This document shows, in pieces, positions 5,915 to 12,011 of a stretch of 23,658 nt of DNA. Position 1 is the stretch's first letter. The number at the start of each line of letters is the position of its first letter. The notes below the pieces were generated by a model. The model was not told the DNA's origin. It was given only the letters and a program-made list of their open reading frames with translations, and made no database searches. The stretch comes from a virus. The stretch spans positions 1 to 23,658 of IMG/VR virus record IMGVR_UViG_3300009151_000397; one strand, given 5' to 3'. The position numbers and the translations under genes are program-made.

Positions 5915-8251
5915 ATGCAAGAACAACAATTTTACGATTACATCACGGGGCTCGCCCCGGCAGGCGAGACGGCGCTGCTGGTGCGCCAGAAGCCCGTCAT
6001 GCGCGACGGCGAGCAGCAGGCGTTCCTTGACGGTTCGCTGAAGTACACCTGGCCCGCGTACATGCCCACCAAGCCGCGCGGGGAAGGCGAGGCATGGTAT
6101 CTCAACACCGGCTCGTTCATGGCGTCACGCTTCCTCGACGGCAAGCCCAGCGCCAGCGCCGCGAATTGCGACTACGTCCTGTGCATGATGCTGGACGACA
6201 TCGGCACCAAGTCCAAGGTGCCGCCCCTGCCGCCGACATGGATCATGGAGACCAGCGAGGGGTCGTTCCAGTGGGGCTACGGCTTTACCGATCAGCCGTC
6301 CAAGGGTGAGTTCAGCGCGGCCATCACCGCCATCGCGGAGGCAGGCTACACAGACCCCGGCGCGACCAACCCTGTACGTAACTTTCGCATTCCCGGCTCC
6401 GTTAATCTGAAGCCCGGTCGCGATCTCTTCCGTTCACGTTTGGTTGAGTTCCATCCAGACCGTGAGTACACGCTGCCGCAGATCTGCGAGGCGTTGGGTG
6501 TTACGCCGGGGGAAGCCGCTACCGTTTCTCATTTAGGGCTCAAGTTGCGCGACACCGGCAAGGATACCGTGCTGGAGTGGCTTAACGACAAGGGTCTGGT
6601 GCTGTCGCACGTCAACCCAGAAGGCTGGATGGGCATCGTGTGCCCCAACCACGCCGAGCATACGGACGGCCAGACTGGAGCCCGCTACAAGCCGCTGGAT
6701 CGCTCGTTCTGCTGCTACCACGGCCACTGCGAGGGTTTCAATACGCAGGCGTTCTTGGCGTGGGTCCACGCCAACGGTGGCCCGCGCGTTTCGCCAGGTC
6801 TGCGCGACGAATTGTTGGCTGAACGGATGCAAGAGGCGTTGTCAAAAATTGCGCCCACCGAGGCGTTTCCCGACGAGGCCGCCAAGGTCATCGCCGAAGT
6901 CGAGCGCAAGGAGGTCGGGCGCGTTGACAAGGCGAGCTGGTACGAGCGGTTCGCCTACATCATTGAAGACGACGCTTACTTCGACATGGACGCCCGCACC
7001 GAGTTGAGCCGTCACAGCTTCAACGCCATCTTTCGCCATGTGTTTTGCAAATCCATTCACGTCACCGGCAAAACCGCGCGGCGCATCGAGGCCAGCGTCT
7101 GCTACGATGAGAACCGCAGCGCCGCCAACGCTAGGCTGTTGCGCGGCATTACCTACGCTGCGGGTGACGGCGTCCTCGTCTCGCGCGACGGCGACGTGTA
7201 CGGCAACCGCTGGCGCGACGCGCGCCCTGACCTGACCGGCGTGGCCGCTGGCGACGTGTCTCGATGGCTGAATCATTGTCGGGTGCTGGTGCCCGAAGAG
7301 GCCGAACTGGCCCATTGCCTCGACGTGATGGCGTTCAAGCTTCAGAACCCCCGCGTTAAGATCAATCACGCCGTCCTGCACGGCGGCGACGAGGGGTCTG
7401 GCAAAGATACCATGTGGGCTCCAGCCATCTGGGCGGTCTGCGGGCCAGGTCTCAAAAACCGTGGGCTAGTGGACAACGACGGCCTGACATCGCAATGGGG
7501 CTACGCGTTGGAGTCGGAGATTCTGATCCTGAACGAGTTGAAGGAGCCTGACGCCAAGGAACGCCGCACGCTTGCTAACAAGCTCAAGCCCATCATCGCC
7601 GCCCCGCCGGAGACGCTGCCGATCAACCGCAAGGGGCTGCACCCCTACGACATGGTCAACAGGATGTTAGTGTTGGCGTTCACGAACGATCCCGTCCCGA
7701 TCTCGATTAGTTCGGGCGACCGCCGCTGGTTCTGCATCTGGTCGGCGGCAGGGCGTATGCCCGCAGACGAAGCGCAGGCGATGTGGACCTGGTATCGTGC
7801 GGGCGGGTTCGAGACCATCGCCCGTTGGCTGGCTGACAGGGACGTGTCCAAGTTCAACCCGGCCGCGCCGCCCATGTGGACCGAGTTCAAGGAAAACCTG
7901 ATCGAGAACGGCATGTCTATCGCGGAGAGTTACATCGTGGACCAGATCCGCGCCAAGGCGGGCGAGTTCCGGCGCGGGATCATCGCCACGCCGTTCTTCA
8001 AGATCTGCGAAAGCCTCAACAATGGCGCGCCGAGCGGCGTCAAGATCCCGCAGGCGGCGTTGCTTCACGCGCTCAAGGAGGCCGGGTGGATTGACCGGGG
8101 CAAGGTGGCGTCTGCGGAGCATCCTGGTAAACGTCACATCTACATCGCGCCCGAGTTGATGAAGCACAGCAAATCCGCGTTGCGGAACATGCTGGAGCCC
8201 GCAAACAGTTCGGAAAGTAACGTGCGCGATTTCCCCGGCAAGAAGCCCTGA
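5915..8251 (+). CDS. Primase fused to SF3 helicase (RepB-like primase plus DUF5906-type helicase)
   Basis: A 778-residue bifunctional replication protein. The N-terminal ~200 residues resemble RepB-like/AEP primases: acidic pair in M-L-D-D-I-G-T-K-S-K (D94, D95) and F-R-I-P-G-S-V-N-L-K-P (157-167). A likely zinc-binding segment follows (C243, H246, then C266, C267, H269, C272). The C-terminal part is a superfamily 3 helicase: Walker A G-D-E-G-S-G-K-D-T (491-499), Walker B I-L-I-L-N-E-L (536-542), motif C L-A-F-T-N-D-P (587-593), and G-D-R-R-W-F (601-606) as the arginine finger region. It would prime and unwind DNA for the polymerase encoded just upstream. The last ~150 residues look like a winged-helix or accessory region, which is a guess. 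The gene ends the rightward replication operon. Confidence 0.9.
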   Translation: MQEQQFYDYITGLAPAGETALLVRQKPVMRDGEQQAFLDGSLKYTWPAYMPTKPRGEGEAWYLNTGSFMASRFLDGKPSASAANCDYVLCMMLDDIGTKSKVPPLPPTWIMETSEGSFQWGYGFTDQPSKGEFSAAITAIAEAGYTDPGATNPVRNFRIPGSVNLKPGRDLFRSRLVEFHPDREYTLPQICEALGVTPGEAATVSHLGLKLRDTGKDTVLEWLNDKGLVLSHVNPEGWMGIVCPNHAEHTDGQTGARYKPLDRSFCCYHGHCEGFNTQAFLAWVHANGGPRVSPGLRDELLAERMQEALSKIAPTEAFPDEAAKVIAEVERKEVGRVDKASWYERFAYIIEDDAYFDMDARTELSRHSFNAIFRHVFCKSIHVTGKTARRIEASVCYDENRSAANARLLRGITYAAGDGVLVSRDGDVYGNRWRDARPDLTGVAAGDVSRWLNHCRVLVPEEAELAHCLDVMAFKLQNPRVKINHAVLHGGDEGSGKDTMWAPAIWAVCGPGLKNRGLVDNDGLTSQWGYALESEILILNELKEPDAKERRTLANKLKPIIAAPPETLPINRKGLHPYDMVNRMLVLAFTNDPVPISISSGDRRWFCIWSAAGRMPADEAQAMWTWYRAGGFETIARWLADRDVSKFNPAAPPMWTEFKENLIENGMSIAESYIVDQIRAKAGEFRRGIIATPFFKICESLNNGAPSGVKIPQAALLHALKEAGWIDRGKVASAEHPGKRHIYIAPELMKHSKSALRNMLEPANSSESNVRDFPGKKP

Positions 8252-8372: not shown

Positions 8373-8744
8373 TCACCGGATCTGTTTAGCGGCACGGGCC
8401 GCATGTTCATCATCTTCGCGCAGCGCGTGCGTCGCCGCAGGCCATGCGTCTTCAATCTCGCGCGGTGGCAGATCCTCGATCACGCGCAGATTAGCGCGCA
8501 AGTTCTCGATGCGATACTCCAGCGTCTCGATGGTGTCGTTAATGGCGCAGGCGGTCGCGCGGTCGTCAACGCCAAGCAAGGTCAGCAACTCTTCAATTTC
8601 GCGTTCCATCTCGTCGTGAAACGTCTGTTTCTTGCGGCCCTCGCAGTAGTACGCCAGCAACGCCGCTTCATGGATGGCCTTTGCCGCGATCTGAATGCGG
8701 ACGTAGGCTACTTCGTCGTGTTCGTTGATACCAATTTTGAACAT
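8373..8744 (-). CDS. Hypothetical helical protein, last gene of the leftward operon
   Basis: A 123-residue acidic protein with no family I recognise. Composition and spacing suggest mostly helix, with a probable coiled coil around residues 45-90 (E-R-E-I-E-E-L-L-T-L-L, then E-T-L-E-Y-R-I-E-N-L-R-A-N-L-R). Residues 15-35 include one short hydrophobic helix (A-A-K-A-I-H-E-A-A-L-L-A-Y-Y), not long enough for a membrane span. An SD (GAGGGAG) lies 6 nt upstream of the ATG. A rightward frame over the same DNA (8403-8765) is long but has no SD and opposes the whole cluster, so I take the leftward frame. Confidence 0.65.
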   Translation of the reverse strand: MFKIGINEHDEVAYVRIQIAAKAIHEAALLAYYCEGRKKQTFHDEMEREIEELLTLLGVDDRATACAINDTIETLEYRIENLRANLRVIEDLPPREIEDAWPAATHALREDDEHAARAAKQIR

Positions 8745-8803
8745 GTCAGGCTCCCTCTGGGTTAACGGTGAATGGTTGCACGTCAGCGCGATGGTGTAAA
8801 GGT

Positions 8804-9034
8804 TTATTTAGCATCTAGTGCTTCGCAGACAATGAAATAAGTCATGTCGTCGCGGGTCATGATGACTTGCTCGTCTTCGGGGCCGAATTGATCGTGAAGG
8901 TCTTTAATTTGCCGCAGCGCCGCCTTCAGCTTCTCAATGCGGTCGGCGGCTTCACATTTAATTGGCTCAAAAAGCTTGCCAAAGAATGGATCATCCACTG
9001 GTTCGCGCAGCCGTTTTACGAGATCATCGTTCAT
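8804..9034 (-). CDS. Small hypothetical phage protein
   Basis: A 76-residue acidic protein. The N-terminus (M-N-D-D-L-V-K-R-L-R-E-P) followed by a segment with E-A-A-D-R-I-E-K-L-K-A-A-L-R-Q-I resembles a common kind of small phage protein in which a short leader precedes an amphipathic coiled-coil helix, here residues ~28-48. Its function is unknown. It has a very good SD (GGAGGAAG), and its ATG lies 11 bp inside the preceding gene, so it is translationally coupled to it. Confidence 0.7.
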   Translation of the reverse strand: MNDDLVKRLREPVDDPFFGKLFEPIKCEAADRIEKLKAALRQIKDLHDQFGPEDEQVIMTRDDMTYFIVCEALDAK

Positions 9035-9227
9035 CTATCTTCCTCCCCATCGTCGGGTTAGGGCGCCCGCGCACGTCAGGGTTAGGCCAGACCCAGATCT
9101 CGCCAGTGTCGTCTTGGATGCACACCCACAGCAGGTGATGCTCGTCGCCGTTGTCGATCAGGAAGTGCGCCAGCGCCCGCCCTAGTGGGGTCGTCAGGGG
9201 CATGGTCGGGTTGAGTTGCAGGATCAC
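9024..9227 (-). CDS. Conserved small phage protein of unknown function
   Basis: A 67-residue protein matching a small family seen in many phages of proteobacteria: it begins M-I-L-Q-L-N-P, continues G-R-A-L-A-H-F-L-I-D, and has H-H-L-L-W-V-C-I-Q-D-D-T-G-E-I-W followed by W-P-N-P-D-V-R and N-x-T-M-G-R. The pattern is recognised from memory; no function is established for it. It is probably a compact beta-rich fold. The ATG overlaps the upstream stop as ATGA, showing tight coupling in the leftward operon. Confidence 0.8.
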   Translation of the reverse strand: MILQLNPTMPLTTPLGRALAHFLIDNGDEHHLLWVCIQDDTGEIWVWPNPDVRGRPNPTMGRKIDER

Positions 9228-9577
9228 GGCTTGCCCTCCGTCAGGAACGCAGGCGCGTCCAGCGGCTCATCGCCGGGGCGCTCAGGCATCGCCACCTCGC
9301 GGGTGATGGGCGCCTGCGCCTGCACCAGGTCGCGCACCACGAGTTCGAAGTAGCCCGCGCCGTCCTGCCAGTGGTCCAGAAAGCTAGGGTCACCGCACAG
9401 GATGCGCGCCACCTTGTCGGCGACCACCTCCAGCGCCTGCGCCTGCGCCACGTCTAGGCGGCCCCAGTTGCGTGACGTCCGCATGAGTTGCTTGATGGCC
9501 TGCGAGTAGCCCGCGACTTCACGGAACGCGCCGTGGGTCTGTTCGCGGTCGGATAGGATCTGGTCTGTAATGCTCAT
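9224..9577 (-). CDS. DUF6378-like phage protein
   Basis: A 117-residue protein that fits the DUF6378 pattern: I-T-D-Q-I-L-S-D-R-E-Q-T-H-G at the start, then N-W, a stretch Q-A-Q-A-L-E-V-V-A-D-K-V-A-R-I-L-C-G-D-P, and D-H-W-Q-D-G-A-G-Y-F. The family is common in phages and its activity is not known to me; the H/D/E-rich helices recall small metal-binding nucleotide-handling folds, which is only an analogy. I start at 9577 and not at the longer frame's ATG (9664), because the first 29 residues of that frame lack family similarity and the 9577 ATG overlaps the upstream stop as ATGA. An Ala/Pro-rich tail follows the conserved part. Confidence 0.8.
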   Translation of the reverse strand: MSITDQILSDREQTHGAFREVAGYSQAIKQLMRTSRNWGRLDVAQAQALEVVADKVARILCGDPSFLDHWQDGAGYFELVVRDLVQAQAPITREVAMPERPGDEPLDAPAFLTEGKP

Positions 9578-9963
9578 TTGATGCGGTCCTTTTTTGGATG
9601 TAGGGCGTTCATGATGGTCGTGTGGTCGCGTCCGCAGAAGATCCCTATCTTTTGTAACGACCATCCATGCTTGCGGAGCGCTCGGTACACGTCCGCTCTG
9701 GCGCGTGTGTAGGGCAGCTTGCGGCTTGGACCCATCGCATCGGTCCAGGTCATGCCGTGGGGCACGAGCGCCGCTTGAGCGATGCGCCTGGCGGCGGATA
9801 GGGTGTACTGGTACGTCAGCGGCGCAGGTTCAGGTTCAGGCGCCTGCGGCTCTGGTTCGGGCATGGGCAGCACGGGCTGTCGCCAAGGCGGTGGTGGTCC
9901 GGCGTTGAGCCGGGCGCGTACCTGCTTGTAGTGGTCCGTGAGGGCGGTGTAGTAGTCGCTCAT
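9574..9963 (-). CDS. Free-standing DnaA domain IV-like DNA-binding protein
   Basis: A 129-residue protein. The first ~50 residues are low complexity and rich in Pro/Glu (a P-E-P-E-P-Q-A-P-E-P-E-P run). Residues ~85-120 look like the DNA-binding domain IV of the replication initiator DnaA: a helix (A-R-A-D-V-Y-R-A-L-R), then W-S-L-Q-K-I-G-I-F-C-G-R-D-H-T-T-I-M-N-A, which carries the DnaA signature G-R-D-H-T-T-(V/I). There is no AAA+ ATPase domain, so it cannot be a full initiator. It might bind DnaA boxes or related sites to regulate the host origin or the phage origin, or act as a transcription regulator. ATGA overlaps join it to both neighbours. The repeat-rich region at 11363-11806 is an attractive but unproven target. 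Confidence 0.75.
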   Translation of the reverse strand: MSDYYTALTDHYKQVRARLNAGPPPPWRQPVLPMPEPEPQAPEPEPAPLTYQYTLSAARRIAQAALVPHGMTWTDAMGPSRKLPYTRARADVYRALRKHGWSLQKIGIFCGRDHTTIMNALHPKKDRIK

Positions 9964-10154
9964 GGCACCATCTCCATGAGCCAGCGCCGGGCGTCGCGCT
10001 CGTTTCTAGCGTAGCCCAGCGCGCCCAGGACGGTCACGCAGCGCCATGCGCGGGCGTGGGTGCGCTTGTAGCGAACCGCAGCGTAATAGCCTAGCAGGCG
10101 CCCGTAATAGGTCACGGTGCGCGTCGCGTCGGAATGGGTTGTGGTGGTGATCAT
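9960..10154 (-). CDS. Small hypothetical basic protein
   Basis: A 64-residue protein rich in Arg, Tyr and Thr (T-V-T-Y-Y-G-R-L-L-G-Y-Y-A-A-V-R-Y-K-R) with a C-terminal helix ending W-L-M-E-M-V-P. I recognise no family. The start at 10154 is chosen over an upstream in-frame ATG (10205) because a strong SD (AGGAGG) lies at proper distance and the previous gene stops 1 bp before it. It overlaps the DnaA-like gene by ATGA, so the two are probably made together. Confidence 0.65.
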   Translation of the reverse strand: MITTTTHSDATRTVTYYGRLLGYYAAVRYKRTHARAWRCVTVLGALGYARNERDARRWLMEMVP

Positions 10155-10155
10155 C

Positions 10156-10425
10156 TCAAGCCCTCCTGTTCCGAGCGCGCACCGCGCGCAAGATCTCCTG
10201 CCCATCGCTCTCCCACACGCCGGAGGCGCAGGGGCACGAGTGCGAGGGCGCGGCGCGTTGCAGTTCGCGGGCTTGCAGGGCGCGGATGGCGGCCATGACG
10301 GCCTGACCGTAGGCGCGGCGGTCGGGATCGGGCGCGCGCCTGTAGCGGTCTAGCCCAGCAAGCTTAGGGTAGGGCTTTTGGTTTTCGTCGGCGTCGCGGT
10401 CGATGTAGGTTTTGCGCTTTGCCAT
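10156..10425 (-). CDS. Small hypothetical basic protein
   Basis: An 89-residue strongly basic protein starting M-A-K-R-K-T-Y-I-D-R-D. The middle is a likely helix (R-A-Y-G-Q-A-V-M-A-A-I-R-A-L-Q-A-R-E-L), followed by a segment with two nearby cysteines (S-C-P-C-A-S-G) and an Arg-rich tail. The charge suggests nucleic acid binding, but no known domain is visible. SD GAGGT precedes the ATG. It ends 1 bp before the next gene. Confidence 0.6.
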   Translation of the reverse strand: MAKRKTYIDRDADENQKPYPKLAGLDRYRRAPDPDRRAYGQAVMAAIRALQARELQRAAPSHSCPCASGVWESDGQEILRAVRARNRRA

Positions 10426-10441
10426 TGTCAGACCTCAATAT

Positions 10442-10522
10442 CTATATGAACGCCATTGCCAAAAGGGCACCGACTATTGCTAGGCTTACGATGGTCAAGA
10501 TTGTTTCGATTATCGCGATCAT
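10442..10522 (-). CDS. Proposed 26-residue single-span membrane peptide
   Basis: A very short frame in an otherwise unexplained gap between two leftward genes. It starts M-I-A-I-I-E-T-I-L and is almost entirely hydrophobic except one Glu at position 6, giving one membrane span with no soluble domain. It begins at the ATG complementary to 10520-10522 and stops at TAG (complement of 10442-10444). A weak SD (GGAA) lies about 10 nt upstream. Such tiny hydrophobic peptides occur in phage early regions, for example as holin-like, toxin or membrane-modulating peptides; I cannot say which. The opposite strand also has a hydrophobic frame here, so this is tentative. Confidence 0.4.
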   Translation of the reverse strand: MIAIIETILTIVSLAIVGALLAMAFI

Positions 10523-10600
10523 TGCTAAGGTTCCGTTGCGGGAGGGGCGGGGTGCGACGCGCAGGGGTGCGCGCCGTGGGGGCGATGGGGCGAATGGGCG

Positions 10601-10885
10601 TCACGCGCATGGGTAAGCGCGCGCGCGGCGCAATTCCCACTTTTCGTGGATGGGGCCGCCATCGGGCGCTTCGTCAATGACGACATACGCGACCGTCTTT
10701 AAAACAAGCGCGGCGCGGTCGCCATCACATGTGAAAACGCGGTGCGGATAACCGGGAAACGCGCCGTCGCGGTCGCCAGCGGGTCGGTCGGAATATTGGA
10801 ACCATGCGCCGCCTTGCACGTCGAACTCGCCTAGCAAGCGCGGCGCAGTCATGTGGGGTTCGTTGTAATAGGTCGCCATAGCCAT
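10601..10885 (-). CDS. Hypothetical protein, probably beta-rich
   Basis: A 94-residue protein with no family I recognise. It has alternating hydrophobic stretches typical of beta-strands (L-L-G-E-F-D-V, A-W-F-Q-Y-S-D, H-R-V-F-T-C-D-G-D, T-V-A-Y-V-V-I-D-E) and ends in an Arg-rich tail. The start at 10885 is preferred over the in-frame ATG at 10951 because a GGAG SD lies at the right distance and the upstream extension is Arg/Pro-rich filler lying in the gap to the previous gene. Confidence 0.6.
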   Translation of the reverse strand: MAMATYYNEPHMTAPRLLGEFDVQGGAWFQYSDRPAGDRDGAFPGYPHRVFTCDGDRAALVLKTVAYVVIDEAPDGGPIHEKWELRRARAYPCA

Positions 10886-10960
10886 TGTCCGGTCTCCATG
10901 TTGACGCCTTGATTGGCGCTCTGGAATAGGGGCGCCCGTGGGCGCCCGCATTTCAGAAGG

Positions 10961-11257
10961 TCAAGCAGTCTGAATTTTAGCGCGCATTGCGCGGACAAAC
11001 TCAATCCAAGATCCATTCTCATACCAATGCGCAAGCCATCCGGCGTCGTCGACGGTTGCGCCAAGCGCTTCTAGGGCGCGATCAGCGAGAGCTTGCGCGC
11101 GCATTTTGCGCGCGGACGAATAATCTGTTGAATGGCTGGACATCCAACCGCGACGGTTCGCGTCGTACGTCTGGACGATCCATTGATTGTGGCCTTGCGA
11201 AATCAGGGGGCTAACGTTTGCGCGCGCGGCGCGAATGGCGGAAGAAAGATTGGTCAT
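10961..11257 (-). CDS. Hypothetical protein, first gene of the leftward small-gene operon
   Basis: A 98-residue protein. It has an N-terminal helix (T-N-L-S-S-A-I-R-A-A-R-A-N-V), a central Arg-rich segment (S-A-R-K-M-R-A-Q-A-L-A-D-R-A-L-E-A-L-G), and a W-rich C-terminal part (W-L-A-H-W-Y-E-N-G-S-W-I-E-F). I recognise no family. An AGGA SD lies upstream of the ATG. As the first gene after the repeat-rich intergenic region it should be among the earliest expressed of this operon and could be a regulator or host-interaction protein; that is inference from position only. Confidence 0.65.
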   Translation of the reverse strand: MTNLSSAIRAARANVSPLISQGHNQWIVQTYDANRRGWMSSHSTDYSSARKMRAQALADRALEALGATVDDAGWLAHWYENGSWIEFVRAMRAKIQTA

Positions 11258-11346: not shown

Positions 11347-11436
11347 GATAGCGAAAATAGTTTTAGGCTAGTGCTTGGTCATGTTTAGGCGCGTGTTTAG
11401 GCGGGTGAAAACGCCGGAATTGCGGGGGGTTTGGCT

Positions 11437-11510
11437 ATTTAGGCTATTTTGATTATATGACTTAATGAACTTTATAATTATACATATATAGTATGTAGTA
11501 TAGGCTGTGT
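11437..11510. other. AT-rich block, candidate DNA unwinding element
   Basis: About 70 bp of strongly AT-rich DNA (for example TATAATTATACATATATAGT at 11473-11492) in a GC-rich genome, lying inside the GCCTAA repeat field. AT-rich DNA beside iterons is the usual make-up of replication origins. It also contains a good promoter, so the low GC may simply serve transcription. Confidence 0.45.
11449..11478 (+). promoter_or_regulatory. Sigma70-type promoter, rightward
   Basis: TTGATT (11449-11454, four of six to the -35 consensus), 18 bp spacer, TATAAT (11473-11478, perfect -10). This is the best promoter-like sequence I found in the window. Transcription would start near 11485. No protein gene follows before the terminator at 11561. 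Confidence 0.5.
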
Positions 11511-11587
11511 GGAGCTGTGACGTGCCCCGCGCAACTAGCCTAAATGGCCTAAATGGCCTAACGCCCCGGTTTTCCGGGGCGTTTTTG
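11485..11587 (+). ncRNA. Candidate ~100-nt phage small RNA
   Basis: The DNA between the promoter at 11449-11478 and the intrinsic terminator at 11561-11587 has no credible reading frame, so a short non-coding RNA is predicted. Its 3' part would carry three GCCUAA units and the terminator hairpin. It might act as an antisense or regulatory RNA, or as an origin primer RNA. The ends are estimated from the promoter and terminator only. Confidence 0.35.
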
Positions 11588-11681
11588 CCTGAATGCGTGA
11601 CTATTTAACGCCTAACCAAGTGACTATGTAGAAGACGCGCGCGTTCTGGCGAATGCGTTAGGCCATTTAGGCCATTTAGGC
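11538..11681. repeat. Perfect 27-bp inverted repeat with 90-bp spacer
   Basis: Bases 11538-11564 are the exact reverse complement of 11655-11681. Each arm holds three GCCTAA units at 9-bp spacing and ends in GCCTAACGC (read on its own strand). The spacer contains the terminator. The two arms present the same binding array in opposite orientation, as in bidirectional origin or operator arrangements; in RNA they could also form a long hairpin. Confidence 0.85.
11561..11587 (+). terminator. Intrinsic terminator
   Basis: A perfect 9-bp stem, ACGCCCCGG (11561-11569) with CCGGGGCGT (11574-11582), a TTTT loop and a following T-run (11582-11586). It is the most typical rho-independent terminator in the window and is oriented rightward. 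Its 5' arm overlaps the end of the left arm of the 27-bp inverted repeat. Confidence 0.8.
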
Positions 11682-11717
11682 CATTGGCAAACACTAGCCC
11701 AAAACGCCTAACTCCAT

Positions 11718-11737
11718 GCGAGCGCAGGCGAGCGCAG
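11718..11737. repeat. Two tandem copies of a 10-bp unit
   Basis: GCGAGCGCAG occurs twice directly in tandem. It is the first of a run of small tandem repeats that follow each other to 11913. Confidence 0.7.
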
Positions 11738-11764
11738 GACGCATTGTGCGACTGCTTGCTACTA

Positions 11765-11806
11765 GCCTAAGACGCCTAAGACGCCTAAGACGCCTAAGAC
11801 GCCTAA
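11765..11806. repeat. Tandem array, 9-bp unit GCCTAAGAC, five copies
   Basis: Four complete GCCTAAGAC units and a fifth beginning with GCCTAAG. The unit contains the same hexamer as the rest of the repeat field, so this is the densest iteron-like cluster. Confidence 0.9.
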
Positions 11807-11862
11807 GCCCCCTGCCCCCTGCCCCCTGCCCCCTGCCCCCTGCCCCCTGCCCCCTGCCCCCT
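11807..11862. repeat. Tandem array, 7-bp unit GCCCCCT, eight copies
   Basis: Eight perfect units starting exactly where the 9-bp array ends. The strand bias (C on plus, G on minus) is extreme, so the G-rich strand could form G-quadruplexes: each unit carries a run of five G on the minus strand. Confidence 0.92.
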
Positions 11863-11868
11863 GCCCTT

Positions 11869-11913
11869 GGCCCGGCCCGGCCCGGCCCGGCCCGGCCCGG
11901 CCCGGCCCGGCCC
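11869..11913. repeat. Tandem array, 5-bp unit GGCCC, nine copies
   Basis: Nine perfect units right after the 7-bp array, separated by GCCCTT. Each junction is a short palindrome (GGGCCC-like), so the array can fold back on itself. A translated frame across these arrays (11716-11916) is only a repeat artefact. Confidence 0.92.
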
Positions 11914-12011
11914 TAGGGATAAAAGCCTAGGAAAATCGACGGGGGGCCAGGACCCTGCGCCGGCCGGTCACGGTCACGGAGGGATTGCAAACAATTTTTT
12001 TTAAATATAAA
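11914..12011 (+). promoter_or_regulatory. Leader of the late (packaging) operon
   Basis: Between the GGCCC array and the small terminase. It contains CCTAGG-type duplicates around GATAAAA (11910-11931), a tandem GGTCAC pair (11967-11978), an isolated strong SD (GGAGGG, 11978-11983), and a T/A-rich run before the start. TTGCAA (11985-11990) and TATAAA (12006-12011) could be a promoter with a short 15-bp spacer. No standard late promoter is evident, so a phage-specific factor may be needed. Confidence 0.3.

Follow-up and report, generated by a model that had tools for sequence, protein, structure and literature searches.

Origins built from short iterons and read by self-loading helicases are already known from satellites and mobile elements. 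The alpha protein of phage P4, itself a satellite, is a primase-helicase whose C-terminus binds the short iterons of the origin (type I); its primase is DnaG-like, whereas the phage protein considered here carries a primase of the archaeo-eukaryotic type. SaPI Rep likewise combines a primase and a helicase in a self-loading initiator; the multiple short iterons of its origin are recognised by the C-terminal domain, and loading in both directions has been proposed there (PMC7581432). In SCCmec, the isolated C-terminal domain of Cch2 binds the AAGTG direct repeats of the origin (PMC7581432), while the recognition site of the NrS-1 primase-polymerase, of 8 nt, is present twice (PMC7102993). Finally, geminivirus iterons keep their positions and their repeat pattern while their sequences are highly diverse and matched to the cognate Rep (PMC12548392), although this Rep is a rolling-circle protein of single-stranded DNA plant viruses with an unrelated DNA-binding domain. 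No paper describing such an origin in the phages treated below, or such a wing code, was found in the literature searched, in which few subscription journals were covered.

The window, that is the whole stretch of 23,658 bp that was analysed, is a 23.7-kb viral fragment from a podovirus-like phage with a P22-type portal. Its genes come in the order SNF2 helicase, PD-(D/E)XK nuclease, A-family DNA polymerase, primase-helicase, a set of small leftward genes, a field of short repeats and then, rightward, terS, terL, portal and tail genes. Relatedness at the DNA level to named phages is confined to two of them, with 69-74% identity over terL only, and contigs that carry relatives of the helicase were assigned to bins of Rhodoferax and other beta-proteobacteria, and also to bins of other phyla. 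The leftward block (8373-11257) shows a fast turnover of genes, the one adjoining the array differing even among relatives whose terL is 98% identical. The proteins and protein parts on which the argument turns are the following.

5915-8251, plus strand: primase-helicase of 778 aa, with an AEP primase, an SF3/DUF5906 helicase and a C-terminal winged helix (Pfam PF19263; PHROG DNA primase).
7961-8158, plus strand: C-terminal winged-helix domain, residues 683-748 (AlphaFold, pLDDT about 90).
8108-8125, plus strand: wing loop, residues 732-737 (column scan and switch test).
9574-9963: small DnaA_C-like protein with a DnaA-type helix-turn-helix and a GRDHTT signature, present in about a third of the family.

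The primase-helicase resembles the described initiators in several respects. By sequence it matches the NrS-1 primase (6k9c/6k9e, E 1e-8), and the model of the full protein, of moderate quality (pTM 0.38), matches by fold NrS-1 (E 8e-12), the S-2L PrimPol and SaPI5 PriRep1 (7ola, 7pds). NrS-1 is the closest solved structure by both measures, and SaPI Rep/PriRep1 would be the same type of initiator. With Cch2/CCPol of SCCmec it shares a D5-type helicase adjoining an A-family polymerase. In the AlphaFold model of residues 609-778, a strand and helices are followed by a strand (726-731), a loop and a further strand (740-744), and residues 732, 734 and 737 lie in this loop, the wing. A PDB fold search with the isolated C-terminal domain returned nothing under E 0.001, the weak matches being mostly winged-helix regulators. 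There are also differences: compared to SaPIs, these are tailed phages with their own capsid genes, the array lies beside terS at 3-8 kb from the helicase gene, the 9-bp phase is strict and the box sequence switches between close relatives; compared to Cch2, the primase is fused to the helicase, and there are, instead of three 5-nt repeats, 8-17 boxes that measure 6-9 nt and an A+T block; and the iteron array is a feature that NrS-1 does not have, nor has such a wing been described for NrS-1.

The field itself had been noticed from the letters of the window as 17 GCCTAA hexamers in 444 bp, counted on both strands, with clusters of 3, 3 and 5 copies spaced by exactly 9 bp, and a recount bears this out. 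GCCTAA/TTAGGC occurs 21 times in the window on both strands, 17 times within 11363-11806 and 4 times in the other 23.2 kb, which answers the concern that the hexamer might be equally dense elsewhere. The whole window held on average 8.9 copies and at most 17 in 100 dinucleotide shuffles, from which about 0.17 copies would be expected per 444 bp. Eight gaps between boxes are exactly 9 bp, and the boxes run across the field in the order: four minus, the A+T block, four plus, three minus, six plus. The parts of the field are, from left to right:

11363-11444, minus strand: left iteron cluster, four TTAGGC boxes (11363, 11385, 11397, 11439).
11446-11512, no strand: A+T-rich block, best 50 bp 86% A+T, a candidate duplex-unwinding element.
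11449-11478, plus strand: promoter-like TTGATT-18-TATAAT inside the A+T block, weak (shuffles give 0.7 such sites for the region, which has 2).
11538-11561, plus strand: right iteron cluster 1, three GCCTAA (11538, 11547, 11556) in 9-bp phase, unit GCCTAAATG.
11610-11615, plus strand: lone GCCTAA box.
11658-11681, minus strand: three TTAGGC boxes (11658, 11667, 11676) in 9-bp phase, pairing with 11531-11564 as a 34-nt imperfect inverted repeat.
11706-11711, plus strand: lone GCCTAA box.
11765-11806, plus strand: right iteron cluster 2, five GCCTAA (11765 to 11801) in 9-bp phase, unit GCCTAAGAC.

The placement of the field between leftward and rightward genes, with an A+T-rich block inside, is seen in the window and kept in relatives, and so is the field as such, whose absence from close relatives would have told against this reading. 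In six close relatives (L054, L049, L035, L069, L070 and L071, terL 96-100% identical) it is retained with differing copy numbers, and in farther ones (terL 79-88%) an array stands at the equivalent place with a different box, namely TGACCCAA, TTGTCCACA, TGACCTA, TGCCGAA, TGCCCAA, CGCCTAAC, TGACTA or TTGTCA. In 47 of 58 homologous intergenic regions, repeats most often recur at a lag of 9, and among all boxes of the relatives 246 gaps measure 9 bp (next commonest: 27). Polarity is conserved as well: across motif classes, 198 minus against 36 plus boxes lie left of the A+T block, while the first two boxes to its right are plus in 120 cases and minus in 16. The block itself is found at the equivalent place in every motif class, with about 80% A+T between oppositely oriented boxes in most of them. 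The position between the small leftward genes and terS, the 9-bp head-to-tail phase, the polarity and the A+T block are thus conserved, and the box sequence is lineage-specific. The 9-bp phasing, which had been considered unusual for classical iterons of about 20 bp, is the rule in this phage family, the hexamer itself belonging to one lineage.

What the box sequence follows is the wing of the primase-helicase. In a first set of C-termini, a K-S-R wing was found with CCACA boxes and a V-A-S wing with CCCAA boxes, and this rule was upheld in all 73 of the loci fetched later, several of them near-identical to earlier ones. In total, 274 loci with both a helicase and an array were reduced to 140 non-redundant genomes, in which K-S-R wing against CCACA box gives a two-by-two count of 95/4/2/39, with 134 genomes agreeing and 6 breaking the rule. 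Array similarity for similar versus different wings is 0.71 versus 0.07 below 10% divergence of the helicase core, 0.49 versus 0.07 at 20-30% and 0.34 versus 0.03 at 30-40%. A single-column scan, stratified by core divergence and covering 617 helicase, 114 TerS and 272 TerL columns, ranks helicase positions 732, 737 and 734 at the top with a score of 0.21, followed by 0.12 for the next (helicase mean 0.006, sd 0.039); the combination of 732 and 734 reaches 0.40. By comparison, the best TerL column scores 0.116. Roughly 1,100 features in all (columns of proteins, and gene families) were compared, and these three residues predict the box best. With the winged helix excluded from tree building, the K-S-R state was seen to switch independently, and with support, 13 times; on average 12.3 of these switches are concordant with CCACA and none is opposed (median p 5e-4). 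Besides, M at 732 is paired with TGACTA in both the GRLMSR and the GLCMSP groups, which are distant clades, and a far relative on a contig from a Rhodoferax bin (L494), with a helicase 57% identical, again combines K-S-R with TTGTCCACA. Taken over about 140 relatives, this covariation suggests that the short repeat used by each phage is determined by three residues of its helicase-primase.

The association could also have arisen without any functional cause, through the exchange of a linked block of DNA reaching from the 3' end of the helicase gene through the array, since wing and array lie within 3-8 kb of each other and these phages recombine. Such a block would, however, raise all wing positions and the gene families lying in between, whereas the neighbouring wing positions 733, 735, 736 and 738 score 0.025-0.076 against 0.21 for 732, 734 and 737, and the 117 gene families between helicase and array, tested as box readers, reach at most 0.055. 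That only the three residues respond while intervening families stay this low argues against simple linkage, and we consider block exchange highly improbable. The same low values bear on the view that the boxes are operators, by which the DnaA_C-like protein of 9574-9963 or another small leftward product would control the divergent early leftward and late rightward promoters. The field does separate divergent operons and includes a promoter-like site, a DnaA-type helix-turn-helix and the GRDHTT signature are present in the 9574 product, and the boxes recognised by DnaA itself are 9 bp long; the original prediction had put forward the products of 9574 and 10961 as the binders to be examined. 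Nevertheless, about 170 of the 274 array loci, among them all those of the TGACCCAA/TTGTCCACA clade, gave no DnaA_C protein; its recognition helix hardly varies between arrays made of GCCTAA, GCCAATCG or ACAATCGG, and none of the families encoded between helicase and array follows the box (0.055 at best, against 0.21). The 9574 protein, which most array-bearing relatives lack and which stays nearly the same where boxes differ, was accordingly set aside as box reader, and the 10961 product is not conserved beside the array even in close relatives. The prediction of an iteron-like field and possible origin hence keeps its support while its proposed binders do not, and an operator function appears unlikely.

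Packaging and host replication offer two further accounts. A pac/cos site bound by the small terminase would suit a field directly upstream of terS, given that TerS has a helix-turn-helix and that a conserved G-rich element follows the array; yet this helix-turn-helix is almost invariant among genomes with different boxes, the best TerS column reaches only 0.087, and the opposite box orientations around the A+T block are origin-like. As its DNA-binding domain does not vary with the repeats, TerS was rejected as box reader, and a packaging site is held to be very unlikely, if slightly less so than block exchange. Binding of the boxes by host DnaA, the other motifs being decayed versions of DnaA boxes, draws on the K-S-R clade, in which the boxes are DnaA-box-like (TTGTCCACA, some TTATCCACA), TT[AGT]TCCACA occurs on average 6.4 times per array and exact TTATCCACA is present at least twice in 10 of 41 genomes. 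On the other hand, the boxes of other clades are as many and as regular without being DnaA boxes, exact TTATCCACA is confined to the K-S-R clade (0.02 per array elsewhere, and no match in the array of the window), and host DnaA leaves unexplained that box and phage helicase wing changed together in 13 independent switches. This is, in our view, the least probable of these accounts. As an observation in its own right, the K-S-R boxes TTGTCCACA and TTATCCACA are near or identical to the bacterial DnaA box (L120, L124, L136, L137, a subset of L202-L265, L387, L392 and L494), which reflects either convergence or the use of host DnaA.

The conserved anatomy and the covariation of box and wing fit an iteron origin with its own initiator helicase, operating in the manner of SaPI Rep or SCCmec Cch2, and the field is probably the replication origin of a freshwater tailed phage, with the primase-helicase as the predicted initiator reading the boxes by its wing. 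In common with described iteron origins, the window and its relatives have multiple short repeats in a non-coding region, an A+T-rich region beside them and, encoded by the same element, an SF3/D5-type helicase with a primase. The distance of 3-8 kb between array and helicase gene departs from the location directly downstream of that gene, which is typical of SaPIs and unneeded for the mechanism. We infer iteron binding, melting of the A+T block, a bidirectional start and origin function as follows. Box arrays in 9-bp head-to-tail phase, of opposite polarity on either side, would flank the A+T unwinding block; the C-terminal winged helix would bind the boxes, residues 732, 734 and 737 of the wing choosing the base sequence; hexamers would then assemble on both sides and melt the block, and forks would start for the adjacent A-family polymerase, with loading in both directions. 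Mapping of the origin by GC skew, as had been suggested at the outset, gave no origin signal, the cumulative skew of 13 near-complete relatives having its extremes at varying places and not pointing to the array.

That the C-terminal domain sets iteron specificity is suggested by the covariation, and the window is part of a discordant pair. A relative with a winged helix identical to that of the window (L303) has GCCAATCG boxes and no GCCTAA, another (L273) combines a GCCTAA-type wing with a mixed array, and all other array-bearing members of the GCCTAA subclade have a GRI[AG]S-type wing. Closely related wings may therefore accept both GCCTAA and GCCAATCG boxes, or the window and L273 may be recombinant or chimeric contigs. 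In view of this discordance, the claim that the primase-helicase reads the boxes is stronger for the family, where it is very likely, than for this exact window, where the balance leans in its favour. In a further relative (L284), the helicase is the same or nearly the same as that of the window, with a ACAATCGG array; this case and those of L303 and L273 are either switches observed over a short evolutionary distance or the product of chimeric contigs.

For a common group of tailed phages from fresh water that has not been cultured, these data point to where replication probably starts and to the protein that probably initiates it. With 13 or more independent switches, they also provide a collection of natural variants among which the repeat read by an initiator helicase seems to depend on a few residues of its wing. 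The long-standing question of how a dozen scattered sites can change in step with their initiator can here be tested directly on these variants. Wherever other phages or mobile elements encode D5-type primase-helicases, the wing may further allow their origin boxes to be predicted. More tentatively, and as a possibility we regard as somewhat less probable than its contrary, residues 732, 734 and 737 could be a natural specificity code, the large freshwater family having jointly and repeatedly switched its wing and all of its boxes, thereby dividing co-occurring phages into replication-compatibility groups, with the box of one clade converging on the host DnaA box.

Several smaller elements lie in and beside the field. 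Inside the array, a perfect 8-bp hairpin, CGCCCCGG-TTTT-CCGGGGCG with a T tail (11562-11586), is terminator-like; L069 and L070 lack it and L071 has a degraded version, and a scan of the region did not report it. No Rfam match for an RNA element was obtained in the field. Directly 3' of the field and before terS stand two perfect tandem arrays, (GCCCCCT)x8.6 at 11807-11866 and (GGCCC)x9 at 11869-11913, at the place of which about 14 copies of CCCTG are found in L070 and a CCTGCCT-type array in L264/L265. Just before terS, at 11935-12010, a G-rich element and, after it, GGTCACGGTCACGGAGGGATTGCAAACAATTTTTTTT are conserved among close relatives and may represent a cos site or a late promoter; distant relatives likewise have a G-run.
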